Assembly: GCF_003001955.1 (NCBI RefSeq)
Contig: NZ_PVNH01000007.1
Location: 186,001-250,000, forward strand
From: Prauserella shujinwangii
GTDB lineage: Bacteria; Actinomycetota; Actinomycetes; Mycobacteriales; Pseudonocardiaceae
DNA: 64,000 bases
Direction of reading: 5' to 3'
The notes beneath the pieces are model-generated. The model was given only the letters and a program-made list of their open reading frames with translations, was not told the origin of the DNA and did no database searches. The position numbers and the translations under genes were made by a program. Below, piece after piece: positions 18,871-48,427 of this stretch. The first letter of the stretch is position 1. Each line of letters starts with the position of its first letter.

Positions 18871-19013
18871 GCGAGTGCCGCGTTCCCGTCGGCGAGTGCC
18901 GCGTTCGGCGCCGCGAGTGTGCCGTTCCGGTCCGCGAGTGCTGCGTTTTGCTCCGCGAGTGTCCCGTCCCGGTCCGCGAGTGCTCCGTCCCAGTCCGCGA
19001 GTGTCGGGCTCGG
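18871..19013. repeat. 21-bp-period intergenic array 3
   Basis: Seven units each begin GCGAGTG, at 18871, 18892, 18913, 18934, 18955, 18976 and 18997, exactly 21 bp apart. The consensus is GCGAGTGCYGCGTTCCGGTC plus one base, with decay between copies. The sequence differs from arrays 1 and 2 but the period is identical. It sits between two convergent genes (YbdK-type ligase and GntR regulator). There are no unique spacers and no terminal direct repeats. Confidence 0.75.
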
Positions 19014-19099
19014 GCCGCGCGGTTGCGGTGCGGCCTTCGACCGGTGCGGTGGCCACCTCCTCGAGGTGGTACTGCCCCGGTTCCCGCGTCGTACGGCGC

Positions 19100-19735
19100 T
19101 CAGATCCCGGCGAAGCCCTTGACCAGCGCCGTCGCCACCTCGTCGAGGTGGTGGTGCATCAGCTCCCGCACCTTGTCGGCGTCCCTGCCGCGGAGCGCCT
19201 CGACCAGGCGGCGGTGCGCGTCGAGCTCCTCGGCGGAGGTGATGTGGTCCTCGACGTTGGGCAGGAGGAAGTGCAGCCGCCGCACCTCGTCGATCAGGTT
19301 CTCCAGAATCCGGCGGGTCCGGCTGCTCCCCCCGATGCCGGCGAGCGCGAGATGGAAGCGGCGCGCCGCGTTCAGGGCCCGCTCCAGGTCGGTCCCGGCG
19401 TCGGCCTGCTCGGTGACCAGCGCGTCGAGCTCGTCCAGCTGGGCGGGAGTGGCCGAGCGTGCCGCCTGCGCGGCGAGCGTGGGCTCGAACAACCGCCGGA
19501 TACCGAAGATGTCCCGGACGTCGCTGAGCTCGACCGGGCGCACGAGGTAGCCCTTGCGGGGCAGGACCAGGACCCATCCGTCGTGGGCGAGCAGACGCAG
19601 CGCCTCGCGCACCGGCGTCTTCGACACCCCGAACTCCGCGGCCAGGTCCCCCTCGTACAGCACGTCGCCCGGCGATCGCTCCACGCGGAGAATCTGTGCC
19701 TTCAGCTGATCGTGCACGGTGTCGGTGAGGGACAC
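19100..19735 (-). CDS. GntR-family regulator, FadR/FCD subfamily
   Basis: The 211-residue protein has an N-terminal winged helix (DTVHDQLKAQILRVERSPGD, GDLAAEFGVSKTPVREALRL, LVLPRKGYLVRPV) and a C-terminal all-helical FCD ligand domain with metal-binding His/Asp candidates (FHLALAGIGGSSRTRR, ELDAHRRLVEALRGRD, LMHHHLDEV). FCD regulators usually sense a small carboxylic acid. It is divergent from the import/catabolic operon 19869-30561, so it very probably represses that operon until the substrate or an intermediate appears. Confidence 0.88.
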   Translation of the reverse strand: MSLTDTVHDQLKAQILRVERSPGDVLYEGDLAAEFGVSKTPVREALRLLAHDGWVLVLPRKGYLVRPVELSDVRDIFGIRRLFEPTLAAQAARSATPAQLDELDALVTEQADAGTDLERALNAARRFHLALAGIGGSSRTRRILENLIDEVRRLHFLLPNVEDHITSAEELDAHRRLVEALRGRDADKVRELMHHHLDEVATALVKGFAGI

Positions 19736-19784
19736 GGAGCGGCTCCAGAGCGTGGCGCGGACGGGACGCCGGGAACCCTACCAC

Positions 19785-19794
19785 AGATATATCT
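19785..19794. promoter_or_regulatory. AGATATATCT palindrome, candidate GntR operator
   Basis: A perfect 10-bp palindrome in an A/T-rich patch of the divergent gap between the GntR gene (start 19735) and the permease gene (start 19869). Its position, 50 bp from the regulator's start, suits a shared operator. A/T richness alone could produce it by chance. Confidence 0.35.
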
Positions 19795-19868
19795 CTGAGA
19801 CACTTGAGAAGTAATTTTGGATATGTCACGGTGATGACCACTCGTCAGCCGACGTGGGAAGGGGCACC

Positions 19869-20684
19869 GTGGCCCTCACTCAGCCTCATCGCGGCCGTGC
19901 CGCCGAGCACGGTGCGGCGCTCGTGTCCGTCGCCGTCCGGCGGATCGGGCTGCTCGTCCTCGCGCTCGCCGGATGGGAACTGCTCGCGCGGATACTGGAC
20001 AGCCGCGCCGTTCCCGCGGTGGCTCCGGCGTTCGACGCGCTGGTCTCGACCGTCCCCAGTGGACCGTTCTGGGCGGCGCTCGGTGGCACGCTGCAGAGCT
20101 GGGGGCTCGGCATGCTGCTGGCCGCGGGGATCGGCCTGCCGCTGGGCCTGCTGATCGGGTCGAGCCCGCTCGCGATGCGGGCGACCCGTGGTGTCGTGGA
20201 GTTCCTGCGCACCGTCCCGGCGATCATGCTCGTCCCGCTCGCCGTGCTGTTGTTCGGCGCGACCGTCGAGATGAAGGTCGTGCTGATCACCCTCTCCGCG
20301 GTCTGGCCGCTGCTGGTGCACGCCGCCTACGGCATCGGCCACGTCGACGCCGTGGCGCGCGACTCCATGCGGGCGTTCCGGCTCCGGCGCAGGGACCGCG
20401 TCGTCTTCCTGTACCTGCCGAGCGCCCTGCCACTCGTCGCTACCGGGCTCCGGGTGGCGGCGACGGTGGCGCTGCTGATCTCCATCGGGGCCGAGATCGT
20501 CACCAGCGCACCGGGAATCGGCTACGAGATCGCCCTCGGCCAGGCGAACAACGCCGCGCCGAGGTCCTTCGTGTACGTCCTGCTCAGCGGGCTGCTCGGG
20601 GTGGGGATCAACCTCGGATTCGGCGCACTGGAACGGCGGGTGCTGTTCTGGCACGCCTCGCAGCGGGCAAGGAGCACCGCATGA
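19869..20684 (+). CDS. ABC transporter permease 1 (TauC/SsuC type)
   Basis: The 271-residue protein starts at GTG 19869 behind GGAAGGGG. It has about six membrane segments and the BPD_transp_1 coupling region ARDSMRAFRLRRRDRVVFLY, then LPSALPLVATGLRVAATVAL, matching the EAA loop of the SsuC/TauC subfamily. It is the first gene of a long operon and overlaps the next permease by 4 bp. Two different permease genes imply a heterodimeric channel. The substrate is probably a small organic acid or aromatic compound, judging from downstream catabolic genes. Confidence 0.87.
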   Translation: MALTQPHRGRAAEHGAALVSVAVRRIGLLVLALAGWELLARILDSRAVPAVAPAFDALVSTVPSGPFWAALGGTLQSWGLGMLLAAGIGLPLGLLIGSSPLAMRATRGVVEFLRTVPAIMLVPLAVLLFGATVEMKVVLITLSAVWPLLVHAAYGIGHVDAVARDSMRAFRLRRRDRVVFLYLPSALPLVATGLRVAATVALLISIGAEIVTSAPGIGYEIALGQANNAAPRSFVYVLLSGLLGVGINLGFGALERRVLFWHASQRARSTA

Positions 20685-21448
20685 GACACCTGAGGCTCGT
20701 GGCACAGGGGCTTGCCCTGCCGCTCCTGCTCGTCGGCGCGTGGTGGTGGGTCTCCGCGGACAGCACCTCCCCGTACTTCCCGCCGTTGCGGGAGATCGTC
20801 GCCGAGTTCGCCGACACCTGGCTGTTCACCGGAATCCGCGACGTGCTGCTCCCGACGCTCGGCACGTTCCTCGCCGGGTACTCGATCGCGATCGTCGCCG
20901 GTGTGGTGCTGGGCGTCGCGCTCGCCGCGAACGACGCCGTCGCCGGCTTCCTCGCGCCGCTGCTCGAGTTCCTGCGTGCCCTGCCGCCGATCGCGCTCGT
21001 GCCCGCGTTCATCTCCGTGCTCGGGCTCGGCGAGGAGATGCGGATCAGCGCGGTGGTGTTCGCCTCGATCTGGCCGGTCCTGCTGAACACGATCGACGGC
21101 GTGCGGGGAGTCGACGTCGTGATCCGCGACAGCGTCACCGTGTTCCGCGTTCCCCGGGCGCAGCGGCTGCTCTTCGTCACCCTGCCCGGCGCGTCGCCGC
21201 AGATCGTCGCCGGTGTCCGGGTCGGCCTCGCGCTGTCCCTCATCGCGGTGATCGTGACGGAGATGGTGACCTCAGCCGACGGCGTGGGCGCCTTCAGCCG
21301 CAGCGCCCAGCTGAGCTTCGACCTCCCCGCCATGTGGACCGCGATCATCCTGATGGGCTTCGTCGGCTACACGCTCAACCTCCTCTTCGACCGTCTCGAG
21401 AAAAGGACTCTCCGATGGCATCTGCGCATGCGCGAACCGGCGTCGTGA
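20681..21448 (+). CDS. ABC transporter permease 2 (TauC/SsuC type)
   Basis: The 255-residue protein starts at ATG 20681, overlapping the previous stop (ATGA). Membrane segments include LALPLLLVGAWWWVSA and YSIAIVAGVVLGVALAANDA. The coupling loop is VIRDSVTVFRVPRAQRLLFV, then TLPGASPQIVAGVRVGLALS. The C-terminus is cytoplasmic (RLEKRTLRWHLRMREPAS). It partners permease 1. The next gene begins inside its last 34 bp, so translation is coupled. Confidence 0.87.
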   Translation: MRHLRLVAQGLALPLLLVGAWWWVSADSTSPYFPPLREIVAEFADTWLFTGIRDVLLPTLGTFLAGYSIAIVAGVVLGVALAANDAVAGFLAPLLEFLRALPPIALVPAFISVLGLGEEMRISAVVFASIWPVLLNTIDGVRGVDVVIRDSVTVFRVPRAQRLLFVTLPGASPQIVAGVRVGLALSLIAVIVTEMVTSADGVGAFSRSAQLSFDLPAMWTAIILMGFVGYTLNLLFDRLEKRTLRWHLRMREPAS

Positions 21449-22245
21449 CCGCGGAGGCAGCGAAGCGGGCCGCCCCGGACGTGGACGCGCACGTCCACGT
21501 GGACCGGCTGCACCACGTCTTCGGCCGGGGCGCGGCCGCGCGTACCGTCCTCGGCTCGGTGGACTTCACCGTCGCCAGGGGAGAGCACGTCTCCGTCGTC
21601 GGTCCCTCCGGCTCCGGCAAGACCACCGTGCTGCGCTGTGTCGCCGGGCTGTTGACCCCCACGTCGGGGCAGGTCCGGCTCGACGGCGCGCCGGTGGCCG
21701 GGCCGCCGGAGAGTCTGGCCGTGGTGTTCCAGGACTACAGCCGGTCTCTGCTGCCGTGGCTCACCGTGCGGTCCAACGTCGCCCTTCCGTTGCGCGGCAA
21801 GGGCATCCCGGCGCCACACCGCCGCGAGCGGGCCGCGGAGGCGCTGGCGGCGGTCGGCCTGAAGGACTCGCTCCACCAGTACCCGTGGCAGCTCTCCGGC
21901 GGGATGCAGCAGCGGGTCGCGATCGCCCGCGCCCTCGCCTACCGGCCCGAGGTGCTGCTCATGGACGAGCCCTTCGCCTCGGTGGACGCGCAGACCCGCT
22001 CCGACCTCGAAGACCTCGTGCTGCGCCTGAAGCGGGTGTACGCCATGACGGTCATCGCCGTCACCCACGACATCGACGAGGCCGTCTACCTCTCCGACCG
22101 CGTGGTCGTCCTGAGTGGACATCCCGCCGAGGTCGTGGAGTCGGTCCCGATCGACCTCGGCGCCGACCGCGACCAGCTCACCACCAAGTCGGATCCGCGG
22201 TTCGCGCGGCTGCGTGCGCGCGTCCTGCGCGCGGTCCGGCACTGA
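21415..22245 (+). CDS. ABC transporter ATP-binding protein (TauB/SsuB type)
   Basis: The 276-residue protein contains Walker A GPSGSGKTT, the Q-loop VVFQDYSRSLLPWLTVRSNV, signature LSGGMQQRVAIARAL, Walker B VLLMDEPF and the H-loop VTHDIDEAVYL. The SLLPWLTV after the Q-loop is typical of the nitrate/sulfonate/taurine group. It powers import through the two permeases. Start ATG 21415 overlaps the permease gene. A 30-residue N-terminal extension precedes the domain. Confidence 0.9.
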   Translation: MASAHARTGVVTAEAAKRAAPDVDAHVHVDRLHHVFGRGAAARTVLGSVDFTVARGEHVSVVGPSGSGKTTVLRCVAGLLTPTSGQVRLDGAPVAGPPESLAVVFQDYSRSLLPWLTVRSNVALPLRGKGIPAPHRRERAAEALAAVGLKDSLHQYPWQLSGGMQQRVAIARALAYRPEVLLMDEPFASVDAQTRSDLEDLVLRLKRVYAMTVIAVTHDIDEAVYLSDRVVVLSGHPAEVVESVPIDLGADRDQLTTKSDPRFARLRARVLRAVRH

Positions 22246-22250
22246 GGCCA

Positions 22251-22264
22251 TGGCCCGCGGGCCA
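22251..22264. other. 14-bp palindrome between ATPase and binding-protein genes
   Basis: TGGCCCGCGGGCCA is a perfect palindrome in the 43-bp gap before the substrate-binding-protein gene. In mRNA it could form a short GC hairpin that tunes the ratio of binding protein to channel or protects a transcript end. No U-run follows. Confidence 0.3.
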
Positions 22265-22288
22265 GGTCACGAACCAGAGGAGAACCCG

Positions 22289-23281
22289 ATGTCCATCCCA
22301 CGTCACCGGCGGTCGGCCGCACTGGCCGCGCTGGGCGCCGTCGTGCTGACCCTGACGGCCTGCGGCTCCGGTTCCGGCACGACCACGAGCGCGGCCGGCG
22401 GGCAGCAGCGGACCGCCCTCACCGTCGGCGTCAGCCCCGGCGCCGCGACGTCCACGCCGATGTACCTCGCGGTGCGCGACGGCGTGTTCGCCGAACTCGG
22501 CCTCGACCTCGAGCTGACCGTCCTGCAGGACGGCACCGTCGCCGTCCCGCAGGTCCTCAACAGCGAGACCGAGTTCAGCATGTCCGGTTTCGGCCCCGCC
22601 GTGCAGGCCATCGACAAGGGCCTGCCGATCAAGCTCGTCGGCGCCGCCAACGTGATCCCCACCAGCCCGGACAGCGAGTACCAGGCGATCGTGGTCAACG
22701 CCGAGTCCGGCATCGACGACATCCGCCAGGTGCGGACGTGGGCCGCCGACACGACGGAGACCGACCCGGCGCAGGCGTTCGCGGTGGACGCGCTCGGCGG
22801 CGACTACGCGGCGCTGGACCGGCGCGCGGTGCCCTTCCCGGCGATCGGGGACGCGGTCGCCGACGGCAACGCGGACGCGGCGCTGCTCAACGAGCCCTTC
22901 CTGTCCGAGGCGCTGGGGACCGGGAAGGTCGAGGTGCTCTCCTACGTCAACGGCGAGCTGACCGTCCCGGGTGCGCCGGGCGCCGTGTTCATCGGCTCCG
23001 AGCGGTACATGGCCGAGCACCCCGACGTCACCGCGCGGTTCATGCGCGGGATCCAGCGGGCCTACGAGCACGCACAGGCCCACCAGCGCGAGGTGGCCGA
23101 GTTCGTGCCCGAGACCGGCCTGCACGACCAGGCGCCGCCCGTGGCGGCGCTGGGCGAGTACCAGCAGGGGCCCCTCGACCCGGCCAAGGTCGACGCGCTG
23201 CTGGAGGTCTTCCGGTGCTACGGCGCGATCGAGCGGGACTTCGGCGGGGCCGACATCGTGCACGCGCCCGAGGCGAGCTGA
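22289..23281 (+). CDS. ABC transporter substrate-binding lipoprotein (SsuA/TauA/NMT1 type)
   Basis: The 330-residue protein has a lipoprotein signal with lipobox LTLTACGSGSG (Cys about residue 26), so it is tethered outside the membrane. The mature part begins ALTVGVSPGAATSTPMYLAV, then DGVFAELGLDLEL, typical of the NMT1/THI5-like group. Between about residues 145 and 165 the usual 'LKGKTVAV' motif reads IRQVRTWAADTTE, a divergent form. ATG 22289 follows AGAGGAGAA. It supplies the ligand for the importer encoded just upstream. Confidence 0.87.
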   Translation: MSIPRHRRSAALAALGAVVLTLTACGSGSGTTTSAAGGQQRTALTVGVSPGAATSTPMYLAVRDGVFAELGLDLELTVLQDGTVAVPQVLNSETEFSMSGFGPAVQAIDKGLPIKLVGAANVIPTSPDSEYQAIVVNAESGIDDIRQVRTWAADTTETDPAQAFAVDALGGDYAALDRRAVPFPAIGDAVADGNADAALLNEPFLSEALGTGKVEVLSYVNGELTVPGAPGAVFIGSERYMAEHPDVTARFMRGIQRAYEHAQAHQREVAEFVPETGLHDQAPPVAALGEYQQGPLDPAKVDALLEVFRCYGAIERDFGGADIVHAPEAS

Positions 23282-23291
23282 GGAGCCCGCA

Positions 23292-24980
23292 ATGTCACAG
23301 GACGGTATCCGGCGCGCGGCCGGGGAACTGCTCGCCGACCCCGGCCAGGACGGGCTCATCACCCGCGGCTTCCTGCGCGGCGCCGGGCTGCCCGCCGCGT
23401 CGCTCGGCCGCCGCCCGGTGATCGGCATCGCCAACACCTGGAGCGAGCTCAACCCCTGCAACGCGGGGCTGCGCGAGCTCGCCGGGCACGTCAAGGCCGG
23501 TGTCCGCGCGGCCGGCGGCCTGCCGCTGGAGTTCCCCACGATCTCGCTCGGCGAGGCCTTCGTCCGGCCCTCCACCATGTACCTGCGCAACCTGCTGGCG
23601 ATGGACACCGAGGAGATGATCCTGGCCAGCCCGGTCGACGGCGTCGTGCTCCTCGGCGGTTGCGACAAGACCCTTCCCGCCCAGCTGATGGGCGCCGCCA
23701 GCGCGGGCAAACCGGCGCTGTGCCTGCCCGCGGGCCCGCGTCCGCTGTCCGAATGGGACGGCAGGCCGATGACGATCGACGGGCTCTGGCCCCTGCTCGA
23801 CGAGCGCAGGGCCGGGCGCCTGGACGACGACGGCTGGCACCGGCTGGAGGGCTGTCTCAGCCGCGGCGCCGGAACGTGCAACGTCATGGGCACCGCGACC
23901 ACGATGGCGGTGGTCGCCGAGGTGCTCGGCATGGCCCTGCCCGGCAGCGCGCTGGCCCCCGCGTCGTCGCCCGCGCGCGCCGCGCTGGCCGAGGAGACGG
24001 GCAGGGCCGCCGTCGCCCGCACGCGGGCCGCCGTCACCCCGGCCCAGGCGATCACCCGCGTCTCGCTCGGCAACGCCTTCCGCGTGGTCTGCGCCGTCGG
24101 CGGTTCCACGAACGCGCTGTTGCACCTGCAGGCGATCGCCGGGCGGCTCGGTGCCCGGCTGGACCTCGCGGAGCTCCGCCGGATCAGCGACGGCACGCCG
24201 CTGCTCGCCGACGTGAAACCCACCGGCAGCCGGTTCCTGCACGAGCTGGAGTCCGCGGGCGGCGTGCCCGCCCTGATGGGCAGGCTGGCGCCGCTGGCGG
24301 ACCTGGACACGCTCGCCGGGGACGGCCGCCCCTGGAAGGAAGCCGCCGTCACCGCCACCACCGGTACCGGCTGCCTCGCGACGCTCGACCGGCCGCACGC
24401 CCCGCCGGGCACACTGCGGCTGCTCTCCGGATCGCTGGCGCCGCACGGCGCGGTGCTGAAGCGGTCCGGCGCCGATCCGGCGCTGTGCCGGCACCGCGGC
24501 CGGGCCGTCGTCTTCGATGGTGTCGACGACCTGCGGGCCCGGATCGACGATCCGGATCTGCCCGTGGACGAGACGTCCGTGCTCGTCCTGCGGTACGCCG
24601 GGCCGGTCGGCGGGCCGGGGATGCCCGAGGTCGGCAGGTTGCCGGTCCCCGCCCGGCTGCTGCGGCGCGGGGTGACCGACCTGGTGCGCGTGTCCGACGC
24701 CCGCATGAGCGGAACGGCCACCGGGACGGTCGTGCTGCACGCCGCGCCCGAGGCCGCCGCCGGTGGCCCGCTCGCGCTGGTCCGCGACGGCGACTGGATC
24801 GAGCTGGACGCCGAGGAGTCGCGGATCGACCTGCTGGTGGACCCCGCGGAGCTGCTGCGGCGGCGAGAGTCCTGGATGCCGCCCCGGTCGCCGGTGCGCG
24901 GGTACGAGCGGCTCTACCGGGAGCAGGTCACCCAGGCGGACGAGGGCTGCGACTTCGCGTTCCTGAGGGCGGCGGGATGA
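23292..24980 (+). CDS. IlvD/Edd-family dehydratase
   Basis: The 562-residue protein matches the family length. Fe-S cysteine motifs are present: ELNPCNAGLRELAGHVKAGV, VLLGGCDKTLPAQLMGAA and RGAGTCNVMGTATTMAVVAE. The subfamily includes dihydroxy-acid dehydratase and sugar-acid dehydratases. Its place in a catabolic operon and the absence of other ilv genes favour a sugar-acid-type or dihydroxy-acid substrate, removing water to give a 2-keto-3-deoxy acid. It starts 10 bp after the binding-protein gene and overlaps the next gene by 4 bp. Confidence 0.85.
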   Translation: MSQDGIRRAAGELLADPGQDGLITRGFLRGAGLPAASLGRRPVIGIANTWSELNPCNAGLRELAGHVKAGVRAAGGLPLEFPTISLGEAFVRPSTMYLRNLLAMDTEEMILASPVDGVVLLGGCDKTLPAQLMGAASAGKPALCLPAGPRPLSEWDGRPMTIDGLWPLLDERRAGRLDDDGWHRLEGCLSRGAGTCNVMGTATTMAVVAEVLGMALPGSALAPASSPARAALAEETGRAAVARTRAAVTPAQAITRVSLGNAFRVVCAVGGSTNALLHLQAIAGRLGARLDLAELRRISDGTPLLADVKPTGSRFLHELESAGGVPALMGRLAPLADLDTLAGDGRPWKEAAVTATTGTGCLATLDRPHAPPGTLRLLSGSLAPHGAVLKRSGADPALCRHRGRAVVFDGVDDLRARIDDPDLPVDETSVLVLRYAGPVGGPGMPEVGRLPVPARLLRRGVTDLVRVSDARMSGTATGTVVLHAAPEAAAGGPLALVRDGDWIELDAEESRIDLLVDPAELLRRRESWMPPRSPVRGYERLYREQVTQADEGCDFAFLRAAG

Positions 24981-25888
24981 GCGCGCACGGCACCGGCTTC
25001 GTCGGGACCGGCGCGATGGGCACGCCGATGGCCGGGCGGTTGCTGGCGCGCGGGCACCGGCTCACCGTCCACAACCGAACCCGCGCGCGGGCGGCGGAGC
25101 TGGAGCGGGCCGGAGCACGCTGGGCGGCGACACCTGCCGAGGTGGCGGCGCGTTCCGGCGTGGTGCTGTCCTGCCTGCGGGACACCGCCGCCGTCGAGTC
25201 GGTGTACCTCGGACCCGGTGGCCTGCTCGAAGCCGCCCGGCCCGGGCACGTCTTCGCCGAGCACGGAACGTTCGACCCGGCGCTGGCCAGGAGCCTGGCC
25301 GGTGCCGCGGCCCGGCACGGCGCGTCCTTTCTGGACATACCCGTCACCGGCGGAGCGGAGGGCGCGAGCCGGGGTGAGCTCGCCGCCATGGCCGGCGGCG
25401 ACGCCGCCGCGCTGGACCGCGTCGCGGGCACGATCGGCGCCTACTGCGCGAGCCTCACCCGGATCGGCGACAGCGGGGCCGGCCTCGAGCTCAAGCTCGT
25501 CAACCAGCTGCTGGTGAGCGTGCACCTGGCCGCCGCAGGGGAGGCCGTGTCGCTGCTGGAGCGCTTCGGACTTGACCTCGGCCTCGCCCGCGACGTCCTG
25601 ACGAGCGGCTGGGCGCACAGCGCGATGCTGGAGCGGACCCTCACGCTGGTCCGCGCCGGGCGCCGCACGGGAACGGGCGCCACCATCGCGGGCCTGGCCG
25701 AGGTGCAGGACCTGGTGGCCGCCTCGCTCGGCACGGCCGGTGGCTTCGGTGTCTTCGCGGCCGCGCGGGAGTCCTTCGCCAGGGCCGTGCGGGAAGGGGC
25801 GGGAGCGGACGACCCGGCGCACCTGGCGCGGGCCGCGGTGACCGGGCGGGACCGGAGTGTCCCGAATGGACACAGGGGAGGGGGCTGA
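24977..25888 (+). CDS. 3-hydroxyisobutyrate dehydrogenase-family oxidoreductase
   Basis: The 303-residue protein starts with a Rossmann fingerprint GFVGTGAMGTPMAGRLLARG and has the substrate motif DIPVTGGAEGASRGELAAMA and catalytic Lys in GLELKLVNQLL. The beta-hydroxyacid dehydrogenase family includes tartronate semialdehyde reductase and 3-hydroxyisobutyrate dehydrogenase. With a hydroxypyruvate-isomerase homologue two genes later, a glyoxylate/tartronate semialdehyde-type step is attractive, but the substrate is unproven. The start codon overlaps the previous stop. Confidence 0.85.
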   Translation: MSAHGTGFVGTGAMGTPMAGRLLARGHRLTVHNRTRARAAELERAGARWAATPAEVAARSGVVLSCLRDTAAVESVYLGPGGLLEAARPGHVFAEHGTFDPALARSLAGAAARHGASFLDIPVTGGAEGASRGELAAMAGGDAAALDRVAGTIGAYCASLTRIGDSGAGLELKLVNQLLVSVHLAAAGEAVSLLERFGLDLGLARDVLTSGWAHSAMLERTLTLVRAGRRTGTGATIAGLAEVQDLVAASLGTAGGFGVFAAARESFARAVREGAGADDPAHLARAAVTGRDRSVPNGHRGGG

Positions 25889-25891
25889 GCC

Positions 25892-27457
25892 ATGCCTTCC
25901 GCGCCGAGCGGGTCACCGGGCCCGCACGTCACCGTCGTCGGGGGCGGGCCCGTCGGCCTGTCCGCGGCACTGCTGCTGCGCCGCGCGGGCATCCGCTGCA
26001 CCGTACTGGAACGGGACACGGCACCCAGCCCGCATCCGAAGGCCCGCGGGGTCCGCACACGGACGATGGAGCTGTTCACGCGGTGGGGGCTCGCCGGGGC
26101 ACTCGACGCGCGGGCGCTTCCCGCCGGGGCCAACCAGTTCATCTACTGCGACTCCCTGGCGGGTGCGGAGATCGCCCGCAGCCCGCGCCCCGACGACCGG
26201 CATGCCGGAGTCAGCGTGACCGGCCCGCGCCGGGTGTCCCAGGACGTCGTCCAGCGGGTCCTGCTCGACGCCGTGCGCCGGGCGGGCGGCGTCGACCTGC
26301 GCTGGGGAACCGAGGTCACCGGGCTGCGCCAGAGCGCGGAGCAGGTCACCGTCACGACACGGGACGGTGACCGGGTCACCGCCGACTACGTGATCGCGGC
26401 CGACGGCGTCGCCAGTACCGTCCGGGACCTCCTCGGCGTGGCGGTGGAGGGCGAGGGGGTCCTCGGCTACGGGCAGAGCATCTACTGGCACGGCGACCTG
26501 AGCCGGTGGACCAGGGGACGCCTGTGCATCCAGTTCCTCACCGGACACCGGCTCGGCCACCCGGCGAGCATCGCCTGCGTCGACGGGCGCGACCGGTGGG
26601 TCACCATGGTCACGCGGCCGGGCGGCGGGAGCCGCCCCCGGCCGCCGGATCCCGGCGAGGCGGTGGCGATCATCCGCCGCGCGGTGGGCGCCGAGATCGA
26701 CCCGGAGATCATCGACATCACCACCTGGCGGATCAGCGCCTGCGTCGCCGTCCGCTGGCGCGCCGGGCGGGTCTTCCTCGCGGGCGACGCCGCGCACTCG
26801 TTCCCGCCCACCGGCGGCTTCGGGATGAACACCGGGGTGCAGGACGTCGACAACCTGGTCTGGAAGCTGGCCCTGGTCCTGCGCGGCCTGGCCGGCGACG
26901 CGCTGCTGGACACCTACGAGACCGAGCGCATCGGGGTCGCGCGCGCCAACGCGGCATGGAGCGTGGCCAACGGCGCGCGCTTCCGCGAGATCGGCGCCGC
27001 GATCGCCCGCGGGGACGACACCGCCCTGCACCGGCTGCTCGAGGAGCAGCGGGACCACGTCGAGGCCGTCGAGCAGGACCTCGCCTTCGGTTACGGCGCG
27101 GGTGCCGTGGCCGAAGGCGAGGTGCCGGACGGCACGCCGCTGCGGTACGCGCGGCCGGGGCACCGGTTTCCCGAGACCCCGGTGGTGATCGACGGCGAGC
27201 GGCGGTCGAGCACGGTCGCGCTCGGCGACCGGTTCACGCTCGTCACCCGCCGGGAACAGGAATGGGCCGCGGCACGCGCGGAGGGCGAGCGGTTCGGCCT
27301 TGACCTCGTCCTCGCCGCGGTGGACCCGGACGTGCTGCACGGCAGGCCCGCCGCGCTCGTCCGCCCGGACGGGATCGTGGCCTGGCTCGCCCACCCGGCG
27401 GACGGGCCAGACCGGCTGCGTGCGGTCCTCGGCTCGCTGCTGGGCAGGCGACCGTGA
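25892..27457 (+). CDS. FAD-dependent aromatic-type monooxygenase
   Basis: The 521-residue protein belongs to the class A flavoprotein hydroxylases (PheA/TfdB/MhpA-like). It has the FAD dinucleotide fingerprint VVGGGPVGLSAALLLRRAGI, the NADPH/FAD motif YVIAADGVASTVRDLLGV and VFLAGDAAHSFPPTGGFGMN. A C-terminal thioredoxin-like domain (from about residue 400) ends in VRPDGIVAWLAHP. It hydroxylates a ring, usually an aromatic or heteroaromatic one. Within the operon this step suggests the imported compound is aromatic or becomes a cyclic enol. It overlaps the next gene by 4 bp. Confidence 0.87.
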   Translation: MPSAPSGSPGPHVTVVGGGPVGLSAALLLRRAGIRCTVLERDTAPSPHPKARGVRTRTMELFTRWGLAGALDARALPAGANQFIYCDSLAGAEIARSPRPDDRHAGVSVTGPRRVSQDVVQRVLLDAVRRAGGVDLRWGTEVTGLRQSAEQVTVTTRDGDRVTADYVIAADGVASTVRDLLGVAVEGEGVLGYGQSIYWHGDLSRWTRGRLCIQFLTGHRLGHPASIACVDGRDRWVTMVTRPGGGSRPRPPDPGEAVAIIRRAVGAEIDPEIIDITTWRISACVAVRWRAGRVFLAGDAAHSFPPTGGFGMNTGVQDVDNLVWKLALVLRGLAGDALLDTYETERIGVARANAAWSVANGARFREIGAAIARGDDTALHRLLEEQRDHVEAVEQDLAFGYGAGAVAEGEVPDGTPLRYARPGHRFPETPVVIDGERRSSTVALGDRFTLVTRREQEWAAARAEGERFGLDLVLAAVDPDVLHGRPAALVRPDGIVAWLAHPADGPDRLRAVLGSLLGRRP

Positions 27458-28269
27458 GGTACGCCGCGAACCTCTCCATGCTGTTCGGCCACCTCCCACT
27501 CGCCGAGCGGGCCGCGGCGGCGCGGGTGGCCGGGTTCCGCTTCGCCGAGACGTGGTGGCCGTTCGTCGACCCGGCGCCCGGGGCGGACGAGCTGCACCGT
27601 TTCTGCGGCACGCTCGAAGCGGCGGACCTGCGGCTGGTGCTGCTGAACCTCGACGCGGGCGACCCGGGAAGGGGAGACCGCGGCCTGCTCAGCGATCCGG
27701 CGCAGCAGGCGCGGGTGGAGGCCAACCTGGAGGCCGTCGCCTGCCTGCTGGACCGGACCGGCTGCCGCACCGTCAACGCGCTCTACGGCAACCGGCTGCC
27801 CGGACACGACGCGGGCGAGCAGGACCGCACGGCGCTGCGCCGGCTCGTCCGGGTGGCGGACCGCATGGCCGAACTGGGTGCCTGCGTGGTGCTCGAAACC
27901 CTCAACACCACCGACAGCCCCGCCTTCCCGCTGACCGACATCCGGCGGACGGCGGAGCTCGTCCACCGGGTGAACGACACCACCGGCCACGGCAACGTGG
28001 GCCTGCTCCTCGACACCTACCACCTCACCACGATGGGGACCGATCCGGTCGCGGCCGTCCGCGAGTTCGCCGGGCTGATCCGGCACGTCCAGTTCGCCGA
28101 CGCTCCCGGGCGCGGCAGGCCCGGCACCGGGTCGATCGACTTCCCGGCCGTGACGAAGGCGCTGGCCGCGGTCGGCTACGACGGCTTCGTGGGACTCGAG
28201 TACCACCCGCGGCACGGCGGGACCGATCCGGAAAGGAATCGCGATGAGAATCGTCAGCTACGGACCTGA
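27454..28269 (+). CDS. Hydroxypyruvate isomerase-family TIM-barrel protein
   Basis: The 271-residue protein starts at GTG 27454, overlapping the previous stop. The sequence MRYAANLSMLFGHLPLAERA, the catalytic Glu in CVVLETLNTTDSPAFPLTDI, NVGLLLDTYHLTTMG, IRHVQFADAPGRGRPGTGSI and FVGLEYHPR match the xylose isomerase-like/hydroxypyruvate isomerase (Hyi, OtnI) family. It probably interconverts a keto and an aldehyde form of a short hydroxy acid. The next gene starts inside its last 26 bp. Confidence 0.85.
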   Translation: MRYAANLSMLFGHLPLAERAAAARVAGFRFAETWWPFVDPAPGADELHRFCGTLEAADLRLVLLNLDAGDPGRGDRGLLSDPAQQARVEANLEAVACLLDRTGCRTVNALYGNRLPGHDAGEQDRTALRRLVRVADRMAELGACVVLETLNTTDSPAFPLTDIRRTAELVHRVNDTTGHGNVGLLLDTYHLTTMGTDPVAAVREFAGLIRHVQFADAPGRGRPGTGSIDFPAVTKALAAVGYDGFVGLEYHPRHGGTDPERNRDENRQLRT

Positions 28270-29149
28270 GCGCGCCGAGCGGCCCGGCATCGCCGTGCCG
28301 GGCCGGGGCATCGCGCCGCTCGACCCGCTGCTGCGCTCGCTCGGCTACCCGGCGATCGACACGAACACGCTGCTCGGGCTGCTCGACCTGCTGCGGCCGG
28401 TGCTCGCGGAGGCGCTCGACGGCGACGGCGTCCGCTGGCTGGACGAGCGGACCACCCGGCTCGGACCGCCGGTGCCGTCGCCGGAGAAGGTGATCGTCGC
28501 GGGCGGCAACTACCAGTCGCATGTGGACGAGGCCGCGGGCAGGAAGAACGCCCCCTCGCCCTCGGAACCGATCATCGTGTTCAAGCCCTCCAACACCGTC
28601 ATCGGCCCGAACGACGCCCTGGTGCGGCCCCGGCAGAGCGAACAGCTCGACTACGAGACCGAGATCGGGGTCGTCATCGGGCGCGGCGGGCGGAACATCC
28701 CCGCCGAGCGCGCCTACGACCACGTGGCCGGGTACTGCATCGCCAACGACGTGACCGCGCGGGACCTGGCGTTCCGGGACGTCCACCTCAGCCCGCTGTT
28801 CGCCCAGATGACGCGGGCGAAGGGCATCCCGACCGGCGCACCGCTCGGCCCGTGGCTCGTCACCAAGGACGAGATCGCGGATCCGCACCGGCTGGAGCTG
28901 CGCTGCTGGGTGAACGGCGAGCTGCGGCAGCGGGGGTCGAGCGCGGAGATGATCGTCGACATCCCGCACCTCGTCGAGGACTTCAGCAAGGTCATCGAGC
29001 TCTCGCCGGGAGACGTGATCATGACGGGGACGACGACCGGCTGCGGCGCGTTCCAGGACCCGCCGGTGTTCCTCGAAGCCGGGGACGTCGTGCGGATGGA
29101 GATCACCGGACTCGGGGTGATGGAGACCCCGGTCGTCGACGAGACCTGA
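28244..29149 (+). CDS. Fumarylacetoacetate hydrolase-family protein
   Basis: The 301-residue protein has the FAH C-terminal domain: VIVAGGNYQSHVDEAAGRKN, metal ligands in DYETEIGVVIGRGGRNIPAE, VAGYCIANDVTARDLAFRDV, and GDVIMTGTTTGCGAFQDPP. Members hydrolyse C-C bonds in acylpyruvates or decarboxylate/hydrate 2-oxo acids using Mg or Ca. In this operon it could cleave a diketo acid made after dehydration and oxidation steps. The start overlaps the isomerase gene by 26 bp. Confidence 0.87.
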   Translation: MRIVSYGPERAERPGIAVPGRGIAPLDPLLRSLGYPAIDTNTLLGLLDLLRPVLAEALDGDGVRWLDERTTRLGPPVPSPEKVIVAGGNYQSHVDEAAGRKNAPSPSEPIIVFKPSNTVIGPNDALVRPRQSEQLDYETEIGVVIGRGGRNIPAERAYDHVAGYCIANDVTARDLAFRDVHLSPLFAQMTRAKGIPTGAPLGPWLVTKDEIADPHRLELRCWVNGELRQRGSSAEMIVDIPHLVEDFSKVIELSPGDVIMTGTTTGCGAFQDPPVFLEAGDVVRMEITGLGVMETPVVDET

Positions 29150-29163
29150 GCGGGGAGGAGCCC

Positions 29164-30561
29164 ATGTCCACTCGGCACACCGCAACCGTCCGGCGGGTCC
29201 TCCGCCCGGACGGCCTGCCGCCGGCCCCCGGCTGGAGCCACGGCGTCCAGGCGGGCGGGTGGGTGTTCGGTGGCTCCATGATGGCCACCGACTACGCCAC
29301 CGGCCTGCTGCCCGGCGCGCGGCCACCGGAGGACGCGCCCTGGTTCACCGAACCGCTGGACCTCGAGTCGGCCGCCGTGCTCGACGCGACCGGGGCGGTG
29401 CTCGCCGAGGCGGGCGGCGACCTGCGGCGCGACCTGCTCCGGGTCTGGCAGTGGATCGCGGCCACCTACCCCGGCCCCGCCGAGTACGCGGCGTCGCGTT
29501 CGCACTGGCCCGCGCTGCCCTCGGGCACCCCGTACGCGCGCAACCTCGCCCGCCGGGTCGGCGACCCGCTCCGCGCGTCCACCGGTATCGGGGTCCGGCA
29601 GCTTCCCGTCCCCGGTGCGCTGCTGGCCCTCGACTTCATCGCCGTTCCCGGCACCGGCGGCCGCAAGTCCGGCGTCACCCTGCCGCCCGACCTGCCCGCG
29701 CCCCGGGCCGGGTACGCCCCGGCCGTCCGGCACGGGGACTGGGTGTTCCTCTCCGGGTTCGGTGCCACCGACTTCGCGGGTGACTGGATGTCCACCCGGC
29801 ACATGGGGGAGCCGAGCATGATCGCGCCGGAAGCCCGGGTGAACCCCTACATCTGGCTCGGCTCGGAGATCGAGGCGCAGACCCGCTACACGCTCGACGT
29901 CCTCGCCCGCATCGCGGAGTCGGCGGGCACCTCGCTCGACCGTTGCGTGAAGGCCGACGTCACGCTGACCCACCCGGCCGACTTCCCCGGGATGGACCGG
30001 GTCTGGCGGGAGTTCTTCGGGGACGAGCCGCCCGCCCGCACCGTCGTCACCGGCTCGCAGCTGGTGATCAAGGGCCTGCGTGTCGAGGTGGCGCTCGTGC
30101 TGCTGGCCGGGGACGCCACCACCGGCAAACGCACCGTCCACGCCGACGAGGTGCCGGACCCACCGGGACACGCGCCGCAGGCCGTCCACGCGGGCGACTT
30201 CCTGTTCACGAGCACGGTGCTGCCCGCGTCCCGGGCCGGGGCGGTGCCCGCGGCCGTCCGGGACTCCGTGGGAACGCCGTACTTCGCCGACCCGGCCCGT
30301 GCCCAGACCGCGCTGCTTGCGGAGTACGTGGCGGCGTTGTGCCAGGCAGCCGGATCGGCGCTGGGCGAGGTGTGCAAGGTCCAGGCCTTCCTCTCCGACC
30401 TGCGGCACCTGCCCGGGATGCTGGCCTCCTGGCGGGACGCGTTCCCCACCGAGCCGCCCGCGCTGAGCAGCGTCGGCCTCGGCGGTGGCGCACCGCTGCC
30501 GCTGCCGGGCGCGTGCGTGCAGTGGGACGTCATCGCCCACGCGCCGGTCAGGGGTTGGTGA
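29164..30561 (+). CDS. Triple-domain Rid (YjgF/YER057c/UK114) family protein
   Basis: The 465-residue protein contains three Rid-like domains in tandem, roughly residues 1-150, 175-315 and 340-465. Each has a strand such as GGWVFGGSMMATDYA, GDWVFLSGFGATDFAGDW or GDFLFTSTVLPASRAG. Only the middle domain keeps the arginine in the PPARTVVTGSQL region that binds the carboxylate in RidA. The third reads PPALSSVGLGG and the first is divergent. Normal Rid proteins are about 130 residues and trimeric, so this may be a single-chain trimer. Rid enzymes hydrolyse enamines/imines. It is the last gene of the catabolic operon and overlaps the convergent regulator by 14 bp. Confidence 0.8.
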   Translation: MSTRHTATVRRVLRPDGLPPAPGWSHGVQAGGWVFGGSMMATDYATGLLPGARPPEDAPWFTEPLDLESAAVLDATGAVLAEAGGDLRRDLLRVWQWIAATYPGPAEYAASRSHWPALPSGTPYARNLARRVGDPLRASTGIGVRQLPVPGALLALDFIAVPGTGGRKSGVTLPPDLPAPRAGYAPAVRHGDWVFLSGFGATDFAGDWMSTRHMGEPSMIAPEARVNPYIWLGSEIEAQTRYTLDVLARIAESAGTSLDRCVKADVTLTHPADFPGMDRVWREFFGDEPPARTVVTGSQLVIKGLRVEVALVLLAGDATTGKRTVHADEVPDPPGHAPQAVHAGDFLFTSTVLPASRAGAVPAAVRDSVGTPYFADPARAQTALLAEYVAALCQAAGSALGEVCKVQAFLSDLRHLPGMLASWRDAFPTEPPALSSVGLGGGAPLPLPGACVQWDVIAHAPVRGW

Positions 30562-31030
30562 TGTCGTCGAAGACGAGGAACGTGCGCGTGCCGAGCACAC
30601 CGGGGATGCTCGGCAGCTGATCCAGCACGACGCGGCGGAGGTGCTCGTTGTCGACGGTCCGGACGAGCAGGATGACGTCGAACTCGCCGCCGACCAGCGC
30701 CATGTGCTTGACCTCCGGGATGCGGCGCAGATGTGCCGCGAGGTCACGCCACGAGTTCTGCCGCACCGTGAGCGTGATGTAGGCCGAAGTGGACAGTCCG
30801 GCCCTGGCGTGGTTCACCACGGCGGTGTAGCCGGTCAGCACCCCGGAGTCGCGGAGCCGGTCCAGGCGGCTGTAGGCGTTGGCGCGCGAGATGTTGAGCC
30901 GGTCGGCGAGCAGGCGGACGGAGAGCCGTCCGTCGTGGGTGAGCTCGCGCAGGATGGCCTGATCGGTCGCGTCGAGTGCGGGAGCAAGGTGTCCAGCGCC
31001 GGTGGCCGGACGGGAACCGCTGCTGGACAT
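30548..31030 (-). CDS. bkdR: Lrp/AsnC-family regulator, probable BkdR
   Basis: The 160-residue protein has an N-terminal HTH (LDATDQAILRELTHDGRLSV, RLLADRLNISRANAYSRLDR) and a C-terminal RAM ligand/oligomer domain (NSWRDLAAHLRRIPEVKHMA, LVGGEFDVILLVRTVDNEHL). ATG 31030 is chosen over ATG 31060 because GGGAGG lies at ideal spacing upstream of it. It is divergent from a branched-chain keto-acid dehydrogenase operon. Lrp-type BkdR activation of bkd genes is established in Pseudomonas. The name here is from synteny, not alignment. Confidence 0.8.
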   Translation of the reverse strand: MSSSGSRPATGAGHLAPALDATDQAILRELTHDGRLSVRLLADRLNISRANAYSRLDRLRDSGVLTGYTAVVNHARAGLSTSAYITLTVRQNSWRDLAAHLRRIPEVKHMALVGGEFDVILLVRTVDNEHLRRVVLDQLPSIPGVLGTRTFLVFDDITNP

Positions 31031-31080
31031 GTGGATCCTCCCGGAGTCATGGATAGCCATTCGTCTTCGAAATGGCGCTG

Positions 31081-31094
31081 GTTCTGGTCAGAAC
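31081..31094. promoter_or_regulatory. GTTCTGGTCAGAAC inverted repeat in the bkdR-bkdA gap
   Basis: Perfect 6-bp arms (GTTCTG/CAGAAC) around a 2-bp centre lie in the 116-bp divergent gap between the Lrp-type gene and E1 alpha. The position suits an Lrp/BkdR operator. Lrp sites are usually degenerate, so it is only a candidate. Confidence 0.4.
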
Positions 31095-31146
31095 GTAGCA
31101 GGTGTCGCAGGATTTCCACCGTTGTGTCTCGCAGTGGAGGTGGCCG

Positions 31147-32229
31147 ATGGAGGAGCTCCGGATGGTGCGGCTGCTCGACGCCGACGGAGGCGCCGTCGAG
31201 GACGACCGGTACCCGATGCCCCCGCCGGAGGTCCTGGTGGACGCCTACCGGGCGCTGGTCCGGGGAAAGCGGCTCAACGAGCAGGCGAGCGCGCTGGTGC
31301 GGCAGGGCCGCCTCGCGGTGTACCCGTCGTCGCGGGGCCAGGAGGCGTGCCAGGTGACGGCGGCCGCGGTGCTGCGCCCCGGCGACTGGCTGTTCCCCAC
31401 GTACCGGGACACGGTGGCGGTGGTCGAACGCGGGGTGGACCCGGTCGAGGTGCTCACCCTGCTGCGCGGCGACTGGCACTGCGGCTACGACCCCTCGCGG
31501 CACCGGGTGGCGCCGCAGGCCACCCCGCTGGCGACCCAGCTGCTGCACGCGGTCGGCGCGGCACACGCCGCCACGCTGCGCGGAGAGGACACCGTCGTGC
31601 TGGCGCTGTGCGGGGACGGCGCCACCAGCGAGGGCGACTTCCACGAGGCACTCAACTTCGCGGCGGTGTTCGCCGCACCGGTGGTGTTCCTGGTGCAGAA
31701 CAACAAGTACGCGATCTCGGTGCCGCTGGCGCGGCAGTCCGTCGCGCCGAGCCTGGCGCACAAGGGAATCGGGTACGGCATGCCCGGCGTGCTGGTGGAC
31801 GGCAACGACACGGCCGCGCTGACGGCGGTGCTCGGGGAGGCGGTGACGCGCGCGGCCGGAGGCGGCGGGCCGACGCTCGTGGAGGCCGACACCTACCGGA
31901 TCGACGCGCACACCAACGCCGACGATGCCAGCCGCTACCGCACCGACGACGAGGTCGCCGCATGGGCGCGGCGGGACCCGCTCGTCCGGCTGCGCGCGTA
32001 CCTGCGGGGCCTCGCCGTCCTGGACGACGAGCGGGAGGCGGAGTTCACCGCGGCCGCGGAGGCCGACGCCGCGCGGCTGCGGGCCGCGCTGGCCGACGAC
32101 CGGCCGCCGGAACCCGCGGAGTTGTTCGCGCACGTCCGTGCCACGCCGACGCCGCAGCTGGCGGCCCAGGCCGCGTCGCTGCGCGCGGAGCTGGCCGCCG
32201 AGCGGCGGCAACCGGAGGAGGAGCGGTGA
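31147..32229 (+). CDS. bkdA: Branched-chain 2-oxoacid dehydrogenase E1 alpha
   Basis: The 360-residue protein has the thiamine diphosphate motif CGDGATSEGDFHEALNFAAV followed by VVFLVQNNKYAIS, spanning GDG to NN as in E1 alpha subunits. YPSSRGQEACQVTAAAVLRP and DWLFPTYRDTVAVVERGVDP resemble mycobacterial BkdA. ATG 31147 follows GGAGGT (31136-31141). It overlaps E1 beta by 4 bp. It decarboxylates branched-chain keto acids and supplies isobutyryl- and isovaleryl-type CoA primers for fatty acid synthesis. Confidence 0.88.
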   Translation: MEELRMVRLLDADGGAVEDDRYPMPPPEVLVDAYRALVRGKRLNEQASALVRQGRLAVYPSSRGQEACQVTAAAVLRPGDWLFPTYRDTVAVVERGVDPVEVLTLLRGDWHCGYDPSRHRVAPQATPLATQLLHAVGAAHAATLRGEDTVVLALCGDGATSEGDFHEALNFAAVFAAPVVFLVQNNKYAISVPLARQSVAPSLAHKGIGYGMPGVLVDGNDTAALTAVLGEAVTRAAGGGGPTLVEADTYRIDAHTNADDASRYRTDDEVAAWARRDPLVRLRAYLRGLAVLDDEREAEFTAAAEADAARLRAALADDRPPEPAELFAHVRATPTPQLAAQAASLRAELAAERRQPEEER

Positions 32230-36852: not shown

Positions 36853-36900
36853 GGATCACCGGCACGCCGGTCGGTGATCCTCCGGACACGCGGTGTCCGG
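36853..36900. terminator. Two tandem hairpins before the terpenoid operon
   Basis: The first is GGATCACCG-N10-CGGTGATCC (36853-36880). The second is CCGGACAC-GCG-GTGTCCGG (36882-36900). They start 5 bp after the membrane-protein stop. No U-run follows, which is common for actinomycete terminators. They would insulate the downstream operon from upstream transcription. Confidence 0.5.
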
Positions 36901-36950
36901 TGTTCTGCGGACTGTCGGGTACTCGCGCCGCTCCGGTTACGTCGACCGGC

Positions 36951-41682: not shown

Positions 41683-41693
41683 GAGGACACACG

Positions 41694-42164
41694 ATGGCCG
41701 AGACGATGTCCGTCGACGAGATCGTCGGGGAACTGCGGGAGATGATCGAGGTGAGCCTGCGCAACCCGACCACCCTGCGCAGGCTGCTGGGCAACTCGAT
41801 CGTGATCCAGTACCAGTTCGTCCGGCCGGGCGGCGACGTGGTGCCGTACGTGCTCACGGTGGCCGACGGACGCGGCGGTGTCGAGCCGGGCGAGGTGCCG
41901 GAGCAGGACGCCGACCTCGTCATCCGGACCGAACCGATCACCCAGCACCGCATCACCAGCGGCGAGCTCGGCGGGCGGGAGGCGGTGGTCAGCGGGATGC
42001 TCGACATCCGCAAGGCTCCGTCGATGCCGAAGCTGGTGTTCCTGCGCTCGATGTTCAACCAGTACAAGAAGGCCCGGCTGCGGGCGGACCCGCCGGACGG
42101 CGACGGCTGCGCCGTGGAGACGAGCGGACGCCTCGGGCGGCGCGGGAAAGGGGGAACCGAATGA
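41694..42164 (+). CDS. Stand-alone SCP2-like carrier protein
   Basis: The 156-residue protein starts at ATG 41694 behind AGGAGG. DADLVIRTEPITQHRITSGE, LGGREAVVSGMLDIRKAPSM and PKLVFLRSMFNQYKKARLR match the second half of the SCP2 sterol-carrier domain, and residues 30-70 form the beta sheet. It has no catalytic residues. It probably binds a hydrophobic intermediate. Together with the SCP2-like domain of the fusion protein it makes two lipid carriers in one pathway. It overlaps the P450 gene by 4 bp. Confidence 0.75.
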   Translation: MAETMSVDEIVGELREMIEVSLRNPTTLRRLLGNSIVIQYQFVRPGGDVVPYVLTVADGRGGVEPGEVPEQDADLVIRTEPITQHRITSGELGGREAVVSGMLDIRKAPSMPKLVFLRSMFNQYKKARLRADPPDGDGCAVETSGRLGRRGKGGTE

Positions 42165-43381: not shown

Positions 43382-43386
43382 GCAAC

Positions 43387-46244: not shown

Positions 46245-46269
46245 CCGGTCGCATCCGGAGAGGAGGCCG

Positions 46270-48337: not shown

Positions 48338-48427
48338 GGTCACCTCAGCTTCGCAGAGCGTCGGCGGACCGGATGTCCGGGCTTTCCCGGACGTGCGGGC
48401 CGGAGGGGCTCCGCTAGCGTCGGCGGG

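Follow-up and report, generated by a model that had tools for sequence, protein, structure and literature searches.

Which compound is taken up and broken down by the operon at positions 19100-30561 of a 64,000-nucleotide stretch of the Prauserella shujinwangii genome (contig NZ_PVNH01000007.1, positions 186,001 to 250,000; hereafter the window), and do its genes serve a single pathway? In this window (GC 73%; source genome 6.1 Mb), a GntR/FCD regulator gene on the minus strand diverges from ten close-set plus-strand genes encoding an ATP-binding cassette (ABC) importer, an IlvD/Edd-superfamily dehydratase, a beta-hydroxyacid dehydrogenase, a flavin adenine dinucleotide (FAD)-dependent aromatic monooxygenase (FMO), a hydroxypyruvate isomerase (Hyi)-like TIM barrel, an FAH-superfamily hydrolase and a triple-domain Rid protein. 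An earlier sequence-only reading had named these families and treated them as one import and catabolic unit, and Pfam and NCBIfam matches support every family that it named. Operons of this general import-and-catabolism kind are common. All of the parts belong to known families, and their combination was not found in the literature searched (open-licence PMC papers).

A tblastn comparison of the FAH protein with a plasmid collection of 72,556 records gave one clearly closer match (73% identity), on the megaplasmid NZ_CP108478.1 of Streptomyces mirabilis NBC_01248, with the best FMO match adjoining it. This megaplasmid was among the plasmid matches for all five of the enzymes referred to below as the core, and comparison of all operon proteins with 32 kb read there placed the locus at ~664.5-676.3 kb. 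Besides the FAH protein, the identities were 61% for the IlvD/Edd dehydratase, 53% for the dehydrogenase (residues 6-248 of 303), and 42% for each of the FMO and the Hyi-like protein. The genes lie on one strand in the order dehydrogenase-IlvD-FAH-FMO-Hyi, which is partly unlike the order in the operon, with frames overlapping by 1-4 nt; the FMO-Hyi junction has an identical 4-nt overlap in the two genomes, provided that the GTG starts are correct. A GntR/FCD gene is present upstream here too, but on the same strand as the enzymes, whereas it is divergent in Prauserella. The S. mirabilis importer is complete and of the branched-chain type (Peripla_BP_6/BPD_transp_2), unrelated to the importer of the operon, and the triple Rid protein was not detected in the 32 kb read.

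Because the five enzymes recur in S. mirabilis with another importer and without the Rid protein, we regard them as the core, to which the importer and the triple Rid look like exchangeable additions when the two neighborhoods are compared. By the same comparison, the IlvD/Edd dehydratase, dehydrogenase, FMO, Hyi-like protein and FAH hydrolase probably form one uncharacterised pathway. The unit proposed in the sequence-only reading is supported, with the refinement that its triple Rid and TauABC-type importer fall outside the shared core. Synteny with a characterised operon would have refuted that reading; the sole syntenic locus found was this S. mirabilis one, which is unannotated and uncharacterised. 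Import-coupled catabolism is the best reading of the operon, with a GntR/FCD gene and a complete importer directly upstream of the enzymes, likewise in S. mirabilis. Since a compact pathway unit occurs with two quite different importers, a limited number of assays could be used to look for its substrate.

The module is rare in the samples searched. In the plasmid collection, 591 records matched the FAH protein, 42 the FMO and one the dehydrogenase at 1e-30, 220 the Hyi-like protein at 1e-20, and 95 the Rid protein at 1e-5, inspection being confined to the matches listed. Among these, the module was absent from 20 regions of other plasmid records that were read and compared with the operon proteins, and the nearest other plasmid was that of Streptomyces sp. 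NBC_00984, with FAH (40%) and FMO (35%) homologues ~2 kb apart and without the other three enzymes. As a marker in genome samples, FAH at 1e-75 was found in none of 393 other genomes of the class sample and none of 392 genomes of a genus in the same class, taken to be Streptomyces from its many chaplin genes, a set with no positive control of its own, the same query recovering the source genome in the class sample. At 1e-65, one of 355 other family-sample genomes (G117) gave a match of 49% identity, and the 28 kb read around it contained none of the other enzymes. No third copy of the core was found with this marker in the samples searched, which overlap partly and in which few candidates were scored per genome; a divergent FAH would escape the cut-offs. 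In a sister species (G329), homologues of the genes flanking the operon sit on different contigs, and therefore no empty insertion site is readable. The enzyme genes have a GC content of 75%, near that of the window, and spread of the module by transfer is plausible.

The nearest solved structures to the dehydratase, over nearly its full length, are PuDHT (8ej0, 512.8 bits) and RlArDHT (5j83/9evv, 467.4 bits), and as in these the Fe-S cysteines and the SGTA motif are present, with C56, C124, C196 and the catalytic serine S473 retained in NPC, GCDK, GTCN and SGTA. The GCDKTT and GHC(M/N)T contexts of the second and third cysteines read GCDKTL and GTCNV in the operon enzyme, and they vary in His- and Phe-ending relatives too (GCDKTI, GCDKTL, GTCNT). 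A C-terminal histidine is called fully conserved in sugar-acid dehydratases (SADHTs) in the available part of PMC11316719, and the specificity hotspots named in an excerpt of PMC9314677 include this histidine and alignment position 224, which, on our reading of the two partial texts, is Thr165 of PuDHT in the list of PMC11316719. The histidine is absent from both module enzymes, the operon dehydratase ending in DFAFLRAAG and the S. mirabilis enzyme in GESS; absent also is the GSGT/GCGT loop, the site of Thr165 in PuDHT, in place of which they have TIDGLW and TIDDLW, respectively, one residue shorter. These two enzymes were compared with 10 plasmid homologues, fetched from the 213 records matching at 1e-100, and with a paralogue from the same genome (L033). 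The homologues end in His (4/10), in Phe (2/10) or without the tail (4/10), and L033 ends in His; the loop is GSGT or GCGT in the seven His/Phe-ending proteins and GACTDC in the four tail-less ones. In a 14-row tree, the operon and S. mirabilis dehydratases form a fully supported pair, distinct from the proteobacterial enzymes without the tail. The idea that only the module pair has lost the C-terminal His was rejected, since the residue is missing from four of the 10 fetched homologues as well; these belong to another clade and have a different loop.

The operon and S. mirabilis dehydratases define an IlvD/Edd clade without two features tied to sugar-acid recognition. Because both lack the tail and carry TIDxLW in place of the GSGT loop, ordinary C5/C6 aldonates are probably not what their pocket is adapted to. 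In the laboratory variant PuDHT H653F, D-glycerate activity rose about six-fold and D-gluconate activity was nearly gone (excerpt of PMC9314677), and RlArDHT H579L has a larger cavity (excerpt of PMC11316719). Since the former favours a short acid and the latter widens the cavity, tail loss cannot tell a short substrate from a bulky one. If the clade proves to dehydrate glycerate or some other uncommon acid, it would offer an activity that enzyme engineers have sought to increase through mutagenesis, and would be a warning not to annotate such genes as arabinonate or dihydroxy-acid dehydratases. Two further groups were seen in the same comparison. The Phe-ending proteins of Streptomyces sp. 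NBC_00841 (L037 8001-9677) and Embleya sp. NBC_00888 (L040 8001-9686) are sugar-acid-dehydratase-like and a natural counterpart of the H653F variant. The tail-less proteobacterial enzymes (L038, L041, L044 and L045, each from 8001 onward) form their own clade, share GACTDC and could represent another substrate class.

The FMO has the FAD_binding_3 fold, the GxGxxG (here GGGPVG) and GD motifs and the Rng_hyd_C domain of Group A FAD aromatic hydroxylases. It is of the phenol-hydroxylase/RdmE type, with RdmE as its nearest PDB sequence and RubL among its PDB relatives. The FAH hydrolase keeps NYxxHxxE, DYETE and NDVTARD, which we take to be the active-site motifs of the family. Its nearest solved chains (3r6o, HpaG 1gtt, 8sky and the DKDR hydrolase 8gsr) are annotated as isomerase, decarboxylase or diketo-acid hydrolase, and its best NCBIfam match is 2,4-didehydro-3-deoxy-L-rhamnonate hydrolase (NF053535), at 187 bits under a cut-off of 500.

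The remaining two core enzymes resemble parts of the glyoxylate carboligase pathway (Gcl, Hyi, tartronate semialdehyde reductase, glycerate kinase), with which the operon shares a Hyi-like isomerase and a reductase-superfamily dehydrogenase. The dehydrogenase has the motifs PVTGG and GLELKLVN and scores 154.2 bits against a cut-off of 397 with its best NCBIfam model; the Hyi-like protein falls under the TIGR03234 cut-off (222.8 bits vs 353.45), as does the gcl-linked Hyi paralogue of the same genome (266.8 bits). In that genome, homologues of Hyi, tartronate-semialdehyde reductase and Gcl adjoin on another contig (C4), in a cluster homologous to an annotated Rhodococcus one, and one Gly_kinase match lies on contig C6. 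Gcl is absent among the operon genes, and with a separate cluster on C4 the operon was rejected as the usual glyoxylate-carboligase set. Because this separate cluster exists, the operon Hyi (46% identical to the C4 paralogue) and dehydrogenase (34% to the C4 reductase) are seen as divergent second copies, which suggests a related but different substrate, or dedicated regulation. Plasmid relatives of the operon Hyi, among the matches listed, include one at 47% among 7-deazaguanine-type genes and one at 43% in a gcl cluster; because these contexts differ, the name Hyi does not fix the reaction.

The importer, consisting of two permeases, an ATPase and an NMT1-type lipoprotein binding protein, has the composition of the taurine/nitrate-type ABC family, and the nearest NCBIfam models to the ATPase, run on a longer frame, are TauB, SaoA and NtrCD. 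The TauABC type assigned to it from the sequence alone holds as a family-level resemblance and not as a taurine importer proper, equivalog scores being under their cut-offs: 20.3 bits vs 304.25 for the binding protein (TIGR01729), 218.5 vs 357 for the ATPase and 57.6 vs 342 for permease A. The sole PDB sequence match to the binding protein at 0.001 was the formylaminopyrimidine-binding protein 3ix1 (1.8e-8). Four relatives of the binding protein were found in the plasmid collection at 1e-8, the best on Arthrobacter crystallopoietes pLDW-10 (NZ_CP018865.1). There, the gene order of the operon is kept, with identities of 31% for the GntR regulator, 39 and 41% for the two permeases, 56% for the ATPase and 31% for the binding protein. 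The pLDW-10 locus (L047 4124-12628) differs in having a thioesterase gene after the regulator and, behind the importer set, a xanthine-dehydrogenase-family molybdenum hydroxylase. Xanthine-dehydrogenase-type molybdenum hydroxylases often act on N-heteroaromatics, and by analogy with this neighborhood an N-heteroaromatic ligand of the importer is thinkable.

The description of the last gene product as a triple Rid protein was confirmed by an AlphaFold model, in which the Rid strand-helix pattern is repeated three times (mean pLDDT, the predicted local confidence score, 77; pTM, the predicted template-modelling score, 0.84; low-confidence loops in the first and second units); Pfam alone detects two Rid stretches. 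The top Foldseek match was a chorismatase (template-modelling scores 0.47/0.64, 14% identity), with single RidA chains among the later ones, and on this model the chorismatase match is a resemblance of fold, not membership. A 3x-RidA architecture and an essential Arg are described in an excerpt of PMC4433059, and the operon protein shares with those proteins three Rid domains in one chain. The RidA-type Arg motif, GLRVEV (304-309), is found in the middle domain only, with GALLALD and GACVQWD in domains 1 and 3. The protein was found in none of 389 other family genomes at 1e-20 and in two of 393 other class-sample genomes at 1e-15 (G731 and G597), neither with the other enzymes of the operon in 20 kb read; a genome-contig search gave one 33% relative, on a Nitrospinota contig, where the operon is not the same. 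On that contig (L002 989-7313), the genes after the triple Rid encode an M20 peptidase and an NMT1-type ABC importer. In G731 (L006 6921-14925), the triple Rid gene comes after those for a Bmp-type ABC importer, a cyclase-family protein and an FAD monooxygenase, and this set is a possible N-heterocycle catabolic operon.

Beyond the gene content, the close packing and the shared core, which the sequences show directly, we infer catalytic assignments, an order of steps and a type of substrate that together make up the reading we favour tentatively, a substrate-induced, uptake-coupled catabolic operon. The GntR/FCD protein would repress until the substrate or an intermediate binds, and the importer would take up a small, probably anionic cyclic compound (an aromatic, pyrone or N-heteroaromatic acid). 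The FMO would hydroxylate it, and either the FMO or the neighbouring TIM-barrel isomerase would yield an openable ring or enol; since the operon has no ring-cleavage dioxygenase, ring opening would fall to the FMO or the TIM barrel, or occur spontaneously or elsewhere. The FAH enzyme would then hydrolyse the resulting acylpyruvate-type 1,3-diketo acid by C-C cleavage. Owing to the earlier hydroxylation, the fragment would be hydroxypyruvate or an analogue with a longer chain, and the Hyi-like isomerase and the dehydrogenase would convert it into a 2,3-dihydroxy acid. Dehydration of this acid by the IlvD/Edd enzyme, with its changed pocket, would then yield a 2-oxo acid, for example pyruvate, at no cost in ATP. 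The triple Rid protein in Prauserella would clear an enamine or imine, pointing to a nitrogen-bearing substrate or analogue. That triple Rid genes in the Nitrospinota contig and G731 adjoin importers too is counted in favour of this reading. A stricter version is an undescribed catabolic pathway that leads from an FMO/FAH-opened cyclic acid, by way of a Hyi-like isomerase and a dedicated reductase, straight to pyruvate, and in which a tail-less IlvD/Edd enzyme finally dehydrates glycerate or a close short-chain analogue as a natural reaction that needs no ATP. This version is improbable; dehydration of glycerate to pyruvate is called non-natural in the available part of PMC9314677.

Several observations weigh against the favoured reading. 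The lack of a ring-cleavage dioxygenase is one, and none of the six enzymes of the operon was found in 17 kb read around the pLDW-10 importer. A nitrogenous substrate is weakly supported because no triple Rid was found in the S. mirabilis region. The Hyi label is soft, judging from the TIGR03234 score and from the closest plasmid relative listed, which lies outside a gcl cluster; and if the fragment is plain hydroxypyruvate, the operon Hyi and dehydrogenase duplicate enzymes that the genome already has. The tail loss, finally, could equally enlarge the pocket, as with H579L (PMC11316719, in excerpt), or favour short acids, as with H653F (PMC9314677, likewise).

Chief among the rival readings, and in our view possible but doubtful, is a non-phosphorylating sugar-acid pathway modified from route 3 for L-rhamnose/L-fucose, in which the Hyi-like isomerase, FMO and Rid would be accessory. 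Route 3 comprises a dehydratase, a 4-dehydrogenase and a 2,4-diketo acid hydrolase (excerpt of PMC11199699): an IlvD/Edd enzyme would convert the aldonate to a 2-keto-3-deoxy acid, the dehydrogenase would oxidise C4, and FAH would cleave the resulting 2,4-diketo acid, releasing pyruvate along with a hydroxy acid. By family, the operon shares these three activities and the chemistry of the last step, dehydrogenase, IlvD and FAH are contiguous in S. mirabilis, and the best NCBIfam match of the FAH protein is to a hydrolase of this route. That match, however, is far under its cut-off, the operon dehydratase has neither the C-terminal His nor the GSGT loop seen in sugar-acid dehydratases, and the 4-dehydrogenase in the same excerpt is a short-chain dehydrogenase/reductase, in place of which the operon has only a beta-hydroxyacid dehydrogenase. 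The operon also adds an FMO and a Hyi-like isomerase, and the FMO, common to both loci, is left unexplained.

Another reading takes the substrate to be an aryl compound of the arylglycerate or phenylserine type, whose three-carbon side chain is oxygenated. The dehydratase and dehydrogenase would act on this chain, the ring would be the target of the FMO, and FAH would cut a C-C bond. A single molecule would then account for the aromatic-type and sugar-acid-type enzymes, and the absent tail could open the dehydratase pocket to a bulky group, as the H579L cavity suggests (excerpt of PMC11316719); yet no sequence or synteny evidence for such a pathway was found and the operon has no ring-cleavage enzyme, which makes this an unlikely substrate. 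Similarly unlikely is a natural-product tailoring, salvage or detoxification operon, acting on a product of the organism or its neighbours and not serving a carbon source. The relationship of the FMO to the polyketide hydroxylases RdmE and RubL, the chorismatase-like fold of the triple Rid and a terpenoid-like cluster beginning ~6 kb downstream would fit this role, but the presence of an ABC importer and a GntR/FCD regulator of its own fits a compound taken up to be used, the operon encodes no enzyme that would make a scaffold, and the S. mirabilis copy has the identical five-enzyme set with a different importer. Packing of the genes by chance, with no common pathway, would agree with the great rarity of the module in sampled genomes and with a gene order that differs partly between the two loci. 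The grouping goes beyond chance, since five of the six enzymes cluster again in S. mirabilis, on a plasmid of another genus, where their frames overlap on a single strand; this explanation is largely refuted by the second locus and highly improbable.

Positions are in window numbering, and gene starts were chosen by visual inspection of the candidates together with the bases preceding each; for permease A, alternatives to 19854 are 19869 or 19923. With the chosen starts, five junctions among the ten genes overlap (4, 34, 4, 4 and 26 nt) and the other four are gaps of 43, 10, 3 and 14 nt, which bears out its earlier description as an almost overlapping operon. The AT-richer divergent intergenic region contains a 10-bp perfect palindrome, AGATATATCT, at 19785-19794, a candidate GntR operator by its sequence and position. 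A promoter/terminator scan of 19000-31200 found nothing above shuffled sequence: sigma-70-type promoters were not matched, and the single terminator-like site compares with a mean of 1.8 in the shuffles. We infer that the ten genes are read as one transcript.

Table 1 Features of the regulator-importer-enzyme locus in window coordinates
Feature	Position	Strand	Supporting match or property
GntR/FCD transcriptional regulator	19100..19735	-	Pfam GntR 2.5e-17, FCD 4.1e-23
Intergenic region between regulator and permease A, 118 bp	19736..19853	.	GC 57% vs 73% in window
ABC permease A, TauC/SsuC/NtrB-like	19854..20684	+	BPD_transp_1 8.2e-17
ABC permease B, 255 aa, ATGA overlap with permease A	20681..21448	+	BPD_transp_1 4e-20
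ABC ATPase	21415..22245	+	ABC_tran 4.2e-34
Lipoprotein substrate-binding protein, NMT1/THI5-like, lipobox LTAC	22289..23281	+	NMT1 3.7e-16
IlvD/Edd-superfamily dehydratase, sugar-acid-dehydratase-like	23292..24980	+	
Beta-hydroxyacid dehydrogenase (tartronate semialdehyde reductase / HIBADH superfamily)	24977..25888	+	NAD_binding_2 1.4e-41
Group-A-type FAD aromatic monooxygenase (FMO)	25892..27457	+	FAD_binding_3 2.3e-81, Rng_hyd_C 1e-11
Hyi-like TIM barrel, GTG start overlapping FMO stop	27454..28269	+	AP_endonuc_2 2.8e-31
FAH-superfamily hydrolase/decarboxylase	28244..29149	+	FAA_hydrolase 1.6e-71
Triple-domain Rid protein (3x-Rid architecture)	29164..30561	+	

Upstream of the operon lie DivIVA, PhoD, TerC and GCS2-family genes. 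Downstream, the triple Rid gene overlaps a convergent Lrp/AsnC regulator gene (30548-31060, minus strand) by 14 nt, and E1/E2-type genes of an oxo-acid dehydrogenase are also found on this side. Farther along, at 36900-49381, a polyprenyl synthetase, a UbiA/HMGL frame, a radical SAM/SPASM protein, a P450, a squalene-epoxidase-like FAD enzyme and a luciferase-like monooxygenase are encoded in series, in what looks like a terpenoid-type biosynthetic cluster. The UbiA/HMGL frame (37580-40525, plus strand) is a single open reading frame with a UbiA prenyltransferase (aa 154-385), a homocitrate-synthase-type HMGL (aa 607-862) and an extra segment between them, a fusion that is, to our knowledge, uncommon if read as one protein.

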